From: a virus
Length of the DNA: 38,974 nucleotides
Virus record (IMG/VR): IMGVR_UViG_3300026116_000023
Coordinates: 1-38,974 of that record
Reading direction: 5' to 3' (one strand)
The notes under the pieces are model-generated. The model was not told where the DNA came from. It ran no database searches and saw only the letters and a program-made list of their open reading frames with translations. The stretch's first letter is position 1; every line of letters starts with the position of its first letter. Below, piece after piece: positions 1,681-38,974 of the stretch. Both the position numbers and the translations under genes were made by a program.

Positions 1681-1874
1681 GCGACGAAAAGAAGGTATTG
1701 GCGATCCGCCCCGGGATAGTGCCTGAAGCGAAAGACGTCAAGTTCATTAATTCGTTGCTCTTTGATCGCGTTTTGCAGGTGGTTGACGGGCCTGATTTCG
1801 ATACTATGACGATCGCCGCCGCAGTTGGTGTGATGGAGATGGTGAAGCACCATATTTTGACGCGGCAGGATTGA
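1677..1874 (+). CDS. Small hypothetical protein
   Basis: This 65-residue soluble protein is the last gene of the rightward block that crosses the circle junction. GGGGCGGGGCG lies just before its ATG. No motif is recognised. Its stop codon overlaps the -35 box of the promoter that drives the downstream non-coding RNA. Confidence 0.6.
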   Translation: MSDEKKVLAIRPGIVPEAKDVKFINSLLFDRVLQVVDGPDFDTMTIAAAVGVMEMVKHHILTRQD

Positions 1875-1898
1875 CTCGGCCGCAAGCTGGTGTAGAAT
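1871..1898 (+). promoter_or_regulatory. Sigma70-type promoter of the tRNA-like non-coding RNA
   Basis: TTGACT at 1871-1876 and TAGAAT at 1893-1898 are separated by 16 bp, with five of six matches to the consensus in each box. Transcription would start near 1905, at the beginning of a region with no gene. It is the best promoter upstream of the late block. Confidence 0.6.
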
Positions 1899-2073
1899 CA
1901 AGGTTCTCGCTGCCGCCCGCATAGGCCTACCCCACAGATGGAAGCCCATTATTGCCGACGGCGGCGAGACTGGCTCCGACCGAGTAGATAGGTCGGAGCG
2001 GTCAACGTAAGAAGCCGCGCACCGCAAGAGAGCGCTGGGAGAGGCAACTCCCAAGATCAACAGGAGCAACACA

Positions 2074-2143
2074 GGTGCGGTCGCGGGTCCGATTCCCGCC
2101 GTCCTAGGCCACCAGGACGAGCGCTCAGATGGCGAGCGGCACC
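2074..2143 (+). tRNA. Circularly permuted tRNA-like cloverleaf
   Basis: All four tRNA helices are present, but with the 3' half first. The anticodon-stem 3' strand GGTGC (2074-2078) is followed by a GGTC variable loop and the T-arm GCGGG-TCCGATT-CCCGC (2083-2099). The acceptor 3' strand CGTCCT (2100-2105) and a short linker come next. Then follow the acceptor 5' strand AGGACG (2114-2119), the D-arm GCTC-AGATGGC-GAGC (2123-2137), one base, and the anticodon-stem 5' strand GCACC (2139-2143). The D-loop keeps A14, G15 and GG18-19. No normal anticodon loop with U33 can be formed from the flanks, and T-loop U55 is C. It may therefore be a tRNA mimic rather than a decoding tRNA. The identity of the amino acid is unknown. 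Confidence 0.55.
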
Positions 2144-2170
2144 AAATAGTTTTAAATCTCGCAAGAGACG

Positions 2171-2309
2171 CCACACAAAGAGGTAATTGATAAGTTGGCT
2201 TGGGGCGTAGGGCCAGCATCACGGCGATGTGCAGCAACAGCGAAAACGCGTAAGTAGCTGGGGCGTAAGTCTTGGGGTTCGAGTCCCCGCCAATTATCTC
2301 TTTGTGTGG
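2171..2309 (+). ncRNA. tRNA-like module enclosed by a 19-bp helix
   Basis: CCACACAAAGAGGTAATTG (2171-2189) pairs with 2291-2309 in 18 Watson-Crick pairs and one G-U. At its inner end the helix doubles as a tRNA-like acceptor stem, directly after a consensus T-arm (stem GGGG/CCCC, loop TTCGAGT, 2274-2288). In place of a D-arm is GTTGGC/GCCAGC (2194-2199 with 2212-2217) with a G-rich 12-nt loop. The region where an anticodon arm should be holds CAGC/GCTG around a GCG-AAAA-CGC hairpin. No canonical cloverleaf fits. Confidence 0.5.
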
Positions 2310-2341
2310 TGCAATGCGCAGTGATGATGCGCGCGCGTGGA

Positions 2342-2409
2342 GCTAAGGTGCATAGCGGCTATGGCCGACTTGTAGCAACGACTGGGCTGGTTCGACTCCG
2401 GCTTGCCTC
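2342..2409 (+). ncRNA. Third tRNA-like module (D-arm-like, anticodon-like and T-arm)
   Basis: GCTA-AGGTGCA-TAGC (2342-2356) resembles a D-arm. GCTAT/GTAGC (2358-2362 with 2372-2376) closes a 9-nt loop. GCTGG-TTCGACT-CCGGC (2386-2402) is a consensus T-arm. The seven bases after it, TTGCCTC, find no partner just 5' of the D-arm. They are perfectly complementary to GAGGCAA at 2041-2047, whose last six bases lie in a hairpin loop. A degenerate tRNA is an alternative reading. Confidence 0.4.
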
Positions 2410-2537
2410 GCAGGCTAATAGATGACGCCTCGGGAAGCCGGGATCATCTCCGGTGCACCACTTCAGTTTCATCGCATTAGCCTTGGGAGGATTAGCCGGA
2501 AGTCATCCGCCGGCGGTTTGAACCGAAGCATGACCTT

Positions 2538-2563
2538 TGACCAGCTCAGGCTGGTCTTTTTTT
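2538..2563 (+). terminator. Rho-independent terminator of the non-coding RNA
   Basis: GACCAGC, loop TCAG and GCTGGTC form a perfect 7-bp stem followed by seven T residues. It separates the non-coding RNA from the terminase genes. Confidence 0.85.
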
Positions 2564-2634: not shown

Positions 2635-3063
2635 ATGGCTCGGCCCAGCAAGTTCAAAGAGGAATTCATCAAGCAGGCGACGAAACTATGTCGCATTGGC
2701 GCAACAGATGCGGAGGTTGCTGATTTCTTCGGCATCGATGTCCGCACGCTCTACCGATGGAAGAATGAAAGTGAGCAATTTTGTCAGGCCCTAAAGGCTG
2801 GCAAGGTGGAAGCGGATGAACGAGTAGAGCGCAGCCTCTTCGCTAGAGCCCTAGGTTACGAGCATCCGGAAATTGATATTCGCGTAGTCGACAAAGAAAT
2901 CGTCCAGACGCCGATTATCAAGCACTATCCCCCTGATACGACGGCTGCGATCTTCTGGCTGAAGAATCGCAAGCCGGCTGAGTGGCGCGACCGCCAGGAG
3001 ATCGAGCATGCTGGCACTGTCGAGTTCACAAAGATCACGCGCCAAATCATCAAGCCAAAATGA
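2635..3063 (+). CDS. terS: Terminase small subunit
   Basis: The small subunit recognises the packaging site and delivers DNA to the large terminase. The 142-residue protein starts with a homeodomain-like helix-turn-helix (about residues 18-44: ATDAEVADFFGIDVRTLYRW). The rest of the protein is charged and contains FWLKNRKPAEWRDR, a motif common in this small-terminase family. It is the first gene of the late block and overlaps the large subunit by ATGA at 3060. This adjacency is the strongest contextual support. Confidence 0.85.
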   Translation: MARPSKFKEEFIKQATKLCRIGATDAEVADFFGIDVRTLYRWKNESEQFCQALKAGKVEADERVERSLFARALGYEHPEIDIRVVDKEIVQTPIIKHYPPDTTAAIFWLKNRKPAEWRDRQEIEHAGTVEFTKITRQIIKPK

Positions 3064-38734: not shown

Positions 38735-38935
38735 ATGGCAAATAAAAAACCGCCTAGGCTCAGTCCTAAAGCCCGTCGTGAAGTGGTCCGTTCGTTGAAC
38801 ACTGCTATCTCGGACTATAACCATGAAGCGCATATGTACGGCCGCTTCACCATCCCAACGCCGCCGCCGACATCGCATCTAGTCCGTATATCTCGGATGA
38901 TTGCCAACCTTAATGGCGTAGCTTGGCCGGAATAA
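38735..38935 (+). CDS. Small basic hypothetical protein (66 aa)
   Basis: I start at the ATG at 38735 after TTGGAGCAAGACATC. The protein has a basic N-terminus (ANKKPPRLSPKARREVVRSL), a Pro-rich centre (PTPPPTSHL) and a hydrophobic helix at its end. It could bind nucleic acid. Its last 60 bases are repeated at the left end of the window. Confidence 0.65.
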   Translation: MANKKPPRLSPKARREVVRSLNTAISDYNHEAHMYGRFTIPTPPPTSHLVRISRMIANLNGVAWPE

Positions 38936-38974
38936 CAACCCGCCCTTCGGGGCATCACCTGGAGAATCAATCAT
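38876..38974. repeat. Terminal direct repeat, right copy
   Basis: This is the second copy of the 99-nt end repeat and is identical to 1-99. Removing one copy gives a circle of 38,875 bp and joins the early operon across the junction without breaking any gene. Confidence 0.9.

Follow-up and report, generated by a model that had tools for sequence, protein, structure and literature searches.

The window, by which we mean the whole stretch of viral DNA analysed here (38,974 nucleotides, a virus record of IMG/VR), carries a 99-bp direct terminal repeat at positions 1-99 and 38876-38974, and because this repeat is common to both ends the contig is probably a complete circle. An intrinsic terminator at 2539-2562 is followed by the genes for the terminase small subunit (2635-3063; PHROG 309, E 1.9e-59), the terminase large subunit and the portal, in this order, and the relatives of the portal gene are annotated as P22-like. 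The segment under study lies upstream of the terminator; like the terminase small subunit gene, it and all its features described below are on the + strand of the window.

The terminator, GACCAGCTCAGGCTGGTC-TTTTTTT, consists of a 7-bp stem and then seven T, in agreement with the original prediction. At the other end of the segment, a pattern scan found the sigma-70-type promoter TTGACT-16-TAGAAT (1871-1898), with a 10/12 match and a predicted +1 near 1905. Its description as a good promoter stands as far as placement is concerned, but the pattern by itself is no more frequent than chance would have it, with one occurrence found in the window against 2.4 expected. In line with the claim that the segment contains no convincing gene, there is no + strand open reading frame of more than 55 aa within 1904-2562, and the longer frames that overlap the RNA (281 and 92 aa) are on the - strand and extend over opposite-strand genes. 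The 659-nt RNA has an MFE of -286.1 kcal/mol, as compared with -249.3 +/- 7 kcal/mol for shuffled controls (z -5.25), and therefore folds far better than these. The observation of ~650 nt between promoter and terminator with no convincing gene was thus confirmed computationally, and the prediction that they encode a large non-coding structured RNA is supported.

In the MFE structure the RNA begins with a hairpin TCTCGC...GCGAGA (1905-1969), followed by a second one formed by CTCCGACC and GGTCGGAG (1974-1998). The three T-arm motifs reported previously, two of them as exact, were all recovered. On both strands of the 38,974 bp, the strict motif (a 5-bp stem plus TTCRANY) matches only at 2273-2289 and at 2386-2402, the latter reading GCTGG-TTCGACT-CCGGC, and the remaining T-arm, at 2083-2099, is looser (TCCGATT in a perfect 5-bp stem). 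It had also been stated that none of them could be drawn as a canonical linear cloverleaf. Indeed, no linear tRNA was found, but the looser T-arm belongs to a putative tRNA-like module (module 1, 2074-2143) that can be drawn if it is circularly permuted. Besides this T-arm, the module comprises a 5-bp anticodon-like closing stem (2074-2078/2139-2143), a 6-bp acceptor-like hairpin (2100-2119) and a D-arm-like hairpin of 4 bp (2123-2137). The permuted cloverleaf is the exact MFE structure of the module folded alone (-34.8 kcal/mol); when a longer stretch is folded, the closing stem is not the one chosen, and the module is known from the window's copy alone.

A separate observation is that GAGGCAA at 2041-2047 is exactly complementary to TTGCCTC at 2403-2409, immediately 3' of the last T-arm. 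This pair was considered as a distant 7-bp acceptor stem around that T-arm and rejected, as a 7-mer match within 600 nt is not significant and could be due to chance.

Searches for known RNA classes gave no assignment for the window. ARAGORN reported no linear tRNA or tmRNA there, either by default or with introns, and neither ARAGORN nor Rfam returned a linear cloverleaf with a 7-bp acceptor and a 7-nt anticodon loop; with a lowered score cut-off, ARAGORN made only many implausible overlapping calls on both strands. Since the default searches gave no ordinary tRNA, the view that this is not a normal tRNA cluster holds. Rfam 15 includes models for GOLLD, ROOL, YrlA and tmRNA, none of which reaches its threshold in the window, and at gathering and E-value thresholds it provided no family for the window RNA; group I/II introns and tmRNA had no profile match in the window, and GOLLD and ROOL had none either there or in 19 related loci. 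GOLLD, which the original prediction had offered as a precedent, is thus an apt one as a large structured phage RNA, but the window RNA is not a GOLLD RNA.

Two classes deserve closer comparison. The tRNA-like domain of YrlA resembles the D, T and acceptor arms; TruB and DusA can modify it, and it is able to bind PNPase (PMC8394870). Module 1 is similar in that a permuted domain was found, in the order closing stem, T-arm, acceptor-like hairpin, D-arm and closing stem. It differs in being one domain of a much larger RNA, seen in the window alone, and in its score, since the YrlA model (RF02553) gave a sub-threshold 16.9 bits over 2075-2144 against a threshold of 69 bits; moreover, the window has no Ro60/Rsr TROVE gene (PF05731). 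The tRNA-like domain of tmRNA likewise has a T-arm stacked on a long helix within a larger RNA. In the window, however, only a T-arm scores with the tmRNA model, at about 11 bits against a 47-bit threshold, and default ARAGORN detected no tmRNA.

The family core and its members

Comparison by sequence did not reveal relatives of the RNA: blastn found no match among phages, and neither blastn nor nhmmer found one among 239 neighbours in terminase small subunit (TerS), terminase large subunit (TerL) or portal, presumably owing to rapid sequence change everywhere but in a few short motifs. A motif spotted by eye, CCGGGATNANCTCCGG, was exact only in the window and in two related loci, L105 and L163, and had one mismatch in L023; all four sites are upstream of the terminase small subunit gene. 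A scan of IMG/VR for CCGGGATNANCTCCGG-N0-3-CACCA returned 46 stretches, many with matching surroundings, although a match alone does not define a member, as some of the 46 look coding and lack the hairpin that we call H1. A scan for this hairpin, GGTGAATGCNCAGNNTGATGNGC, gave at least 120 matches.

In the core that emerged from these matches, a strand B (xxxGGTG) is paired with a strand C (CACCxxx). Between the two strands are the hairpins H1 and H2, the loops of which are complementary and covary as a kissing loop, and both the family and this fold are well supported. In the window, H1 is GCGCA-GTGATGA-TGCGC (2316-2332), which is conserved and covaries in the alignment, and H2 is CCGG-GATCATCT-CCGG (2438-2453), found in a pattern scan of the viral collection and supported by covariation. 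Strand C, TGCACCAC (2454-2461), pairs with positions 2306-2313 of strand B (2291-2313); these pairs were checked and B:C covaries. The loop sequences GATGAT (2323-2328) of H1 and ATCATC (2443-2448) of H2 allow a kissing interaction of 6 bp, which may be intramolecular or intermolecular.

The scans for H1 and H2 each select one hairpin, so that the rest of the core is a fair test. H2 plus CACC was present within 237 nt downstream in 69 of 114 distinct H1-selected loci, as opposed to 5 of 2079 windows drawn at random from these loci, and those positions of the H1 stem that the pattern did not fix were complementary in 120 of 120 sequences among the matches listed. Beyond GGTG:CACC, the B:C complementarity extended over a mean of 3.91 bp, against 2.20 bp with swapped C strands (maximum 2.67 in 500 shuffles). 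In an alignment of 37 non-redundant members, which excluded the window, 91.1% of the cells were paired and there were 60 two-sided changes versus 19.8 in shuffles (0 of 500), with the reservation that members were partly chosen by H2 complementarity and some by B:C, so that the test on H1-selected loci is the cleaner one. All aligned sequences maintain the three variable inner pairs of B:C, each of which shows 8 to 18 two-sided changes. At the variable position of the kissing loop, 32 of the 37 sequences have a CG pair, 4 have GC and one has AU, and none is unpaired. An offset by one in the H2 columns between two subgroups lowers the count for this hairpin. The many compensatory changes among homologues, and a 3' half that is a covarying core common to many phages, support the original prediction of a large structured phage RNA.

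A covariance model built from the 37 sequences (R1), to which the window did not contribute, matches the window over its full length at 2298-2468 with 39.4 bits (E 8.1e-10), the next match having 9.1 bits. The same model matches all 71 of the H1-selected loci searched, some of which hold two or three copies, and eight other loci on the side upstream of the terminase small subunit. Terminators lie 3' of 25 of 75 family members, compared with 21 of 294 control windows. The core was found in more than 100 viral contigs and is present in P1, N4-like phages, Ackermannviridae and phages of Xanthomonas, Pseudomonas and Burkholderia. Phages matched by model R1 include the P22-like CUS-3 and IME10, the N4-like IME11, PY54, mEp460, Burkholderia CSP3, Xanthomonas Kintu, Pseudomonas PS-1, Klebsiella T751 and P1, and the named members are phages and prophages of Pseudomonadota. 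A similarity search with a query of 145 bases from E. coli gave matches in 853 of 5,426 complete genomes of this species, about one in six, at 724 places on chromosomes and 237 on plasmids, and no annotated feature covers these places among the matches listed. Of 399 genomes from the order to which Pandoraea belongs, 2 contain the exact H1 pattern, as do 0 of 392 Bacillota genomes, and such exact patterns underestimate occurrence; a covariance search of 369 genomes, in which nine candidates per genome were scored, gave 2 matches and is no estimate of prevalence.

The reference genome of P1 (NC_005856) has two copies, at 69.81-69.92 and 70.07-70.21 kb, which follow the tRNA genes trnA and trnT, and between these copies and the tRNAs a further unit with a T-arm inside an A:B-type helix can be recognized by eye. 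The two copies are on the strand opposite the predicted ORFs plp and upl, which are antisense to them (positions 1473-2206 of our P1 locus, L461) and may not be real genes.

Three further observations concern the variety of these units. A second type, with an H1 loop like GCTAAG and an H2 loop GAGGMAC or GAAGCAC, occurs in L325, L374, L397, L400, L412, L426 and L461. Several of these loci have it in tandem with the main core, and its loops are not obviously complementary. In L163 (2631-2781) H1 has a GAAA tetraloop and the H2 loop is GATAAGCT; the usual kissing pairing is missing and has perhaps been replaced by another loop contact. Finally, positions 2501-2718 of the phiKO2 locus (L319) are ~90% identical to the region downstream of the core in L300, yet phiKO2 has no core match, and from this similarity a further conserved 3' domain may exist.

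The position of the window RNA, between a promoter and a terminator ahead of late genes, raises the possibility that it is a lengthened counterpart of the lambda PR'-6S-tR' leader, acting in cis. Transcription would start at 1871 and stop at 2562 until antitermination carries it into the terminase genes, and the RNA structure would be part of the switch. This reading was considered first. It agrees with the fact that the nearest TerL relative (L082, 89% identical) has at the equivalent place (2873-3165 of L082) a good promoter (TTGACA-16-TACAAT) and a strong terminator, and that other relatives have promoter-terminator pairs upstream of TerL; moreover, the core is found between Q and holin S in CUS-3 and IME10, and Xanthomonas phage PBR31, a TerL relative, encodes Q. 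However, the RNA in L082 is a different one of ~260 nt, which indicates that the site works without an RNA of the window type, and none of the window proteins scanned could be recognised as Q-like. The family is also not confined to such leaders: in P1 it follows tRNA genes, in E. coli IAI39 and EPP-1 it is flanked by a LexA-like repressor gene on one side and by yfdP or rdgC on the other, and in SopranoGao it is found at one end, next to lysis genes. Because of these other sites the reading was demoted, and we regard it as distinctly unlikely: a cis role as late leader fits the window phage, not the family as a whole, and in comparison with the lambda PR' leader and 6S RNA the RNA described here is much larger and tRNA-like, and is present at other sites as well.

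The A:B helix and its tRNA-like inserts

Upstream of the core, strand A (2171-2189) pairs with positions 2291-2309 of strand B in an unbroken helix of 19 bp (19/19 pairs checked) that ends at the GG of GGTG. Just 5' of strand A, sequence and MFE structure place a hairpin with a GNRA loop, H0 (TCTC-GCAA-GAGA, 2157-2168), which has a counterpart of sequence GTCTC-GTAA-GAGAC in L309. The helix is capped by a tRNA-like insert (module 2, 2190-2290) which in the MFE structure contains a D-arm-like hairpin (2194-2217), GNRA hairpins and the T-arm 2273-2289; no canonical anticodon arm was found in it. The A:B helix is enriched across the members, with a median score of 8 versus 5.5 in shuffled controls, and a T-arm adjoins its 3' side in 14 of 142 members and in 0 of 7100 shuffles. 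In 5 of the 142, a T-arm is found in the variable region between H1 and H2, as is the one at 2386-2402 in the window. The T-arms occur in a minority of members, and the tRNA-like modules are optional.

Strand B appears to be shared by two helices. Uninterrupted A:B pairing over 9 bp or more, with the GG of GGTG included, is found in 23 members, and 22 of these 23 also extend B:C by at least 3 bp, so that A and C are in competition for one and the same part of B. Among the 23 A strands several may be chance matches, and a part of the set had been selected by B:C extension. In the window A:B and B:C overlap by 4 nt (2306-2309), and a fold in which B:C is forced together with a 15-bp A:B helix is less favourable by about 8 kcal/mol when modelled without the kissing loop.

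In some members the insert is closer to a real tRNA. L163 holds a tRNA-Arg(TCG). The insert of L299 is tRNA-like, with an Rfam tRNA match of 119 nt and an intact acceptor stem. In both loci the acceptor stem is continuous with the A:B helix. Phage tRNA genes are often nearby, being found within 1.5 kb of 13 of 73 members as opposed to 1 of 102 control windows. These inserts, together with the neighbouring tRNA genes and the place of the P1 RNA after trnA and trnT, would suit a tRNA carrier, that is, a precursor that protects embedded tRNAs and then releases them late in infection. However, most members, the window included, have no complete tRNA, and the acceptor stem runs on into a longer helix and has no free 3' CCA, which, from what is established for RNase P, makes it a poor substrate for tRNA 5' and 3' processing. 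A role as carrier is thus unlikely.

Ordinary tRNA genes are present at the equivalent site in L012, L105, L163 and L193 and no linear tRNA is left in the window, so one might ask if the T-arms are what decay has left of tRNA genes formerly located ahead of the terminase genes, and have no present function. Decay would hardly have left the 19-bp A:B helix unbroken and all three T-stems fully paired, nor the T, D, acceptor-like and closing stems of module 1 intact in a permuted order. The core covaries strongly across distant phages, and owing to these compensatory changes the idea of a degenerate cluster is largely refuted and can be considered highly improbable.

Relation to known phage RNAs and possible roles

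Two families of large phage RNAs invite comparison. GOLLD is a large structured RNA of phages and prophages, of unknown function, often encoded close to tRNA genes; it has kissing loops, and its 3' region is conserved and its 5' region variable. ROOL is a phage-encoded ornate RNA, often near tRNA islands, that also has kissing loops, and in both RNAs such loops can build RNA cages (PMC12286853). The RNA family described here shares with GOLLD its occurrence in phages, its large size, a kissing loop, the conserved 3' and variable 5' regions and the proximity of tRNA genes, but its core is about 100-200 nt, has its own layout of H1, H2 and B:C, and can accommodate tRNA domains inside a helix. 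With ROOL it has in common the kissing loops and the location in phages near tRNA genes, and it differs in giving no match to the Rfam model, in having named members in Pseudomonadota and in the absence of the exact H1 pattern from the Bacillota genomes mentioned above. We therefore consider the family to be separate from both GOLLD and ROOL. No earlier description of it was found in open-licence papers, and subscription journals may hold one.

Thus, we put at nearly four in five the probability that the window segment is a trans-acting structured RNA of a family with no listing in Rfam 15. Two features of the window speak against this reading, as a simple count does not favour its promoter match and a simple energy test does not favour its B:C state. 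The gene context varies between phages, so the RNA most likely acts in trans. As to what it does, our first choice, tentatively held, is a scaffold or decoy. The core would be a rigid scaffold that holds out tRNA-like arms, possibly formed after self-association through the kissing loop; in the window the A:B helix carries a tRNA-like domain with its T-arm, and the permuted module lies further 5'. Such arms would attract tRNA-binding enzymes or tRNA-targeting defence nucleases and could act as a decoy or a tether. In a more elaborate proposal, the scaffold would carry whole tRNAs as well as mimics, B would switch between A and C, and the RNA would serve as decoy or assembly against host tRNA-targeting defences or the tRNA-processing machinery. 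This proposal is rather unlikely.

GOLLD, ROOL and other large RNAs of phages are ornate and remain unexplained. With members of this family in phages as well known as P1, PY54 and CUS-3, the role of such RNAs becomes approachable in E. coli with P1.
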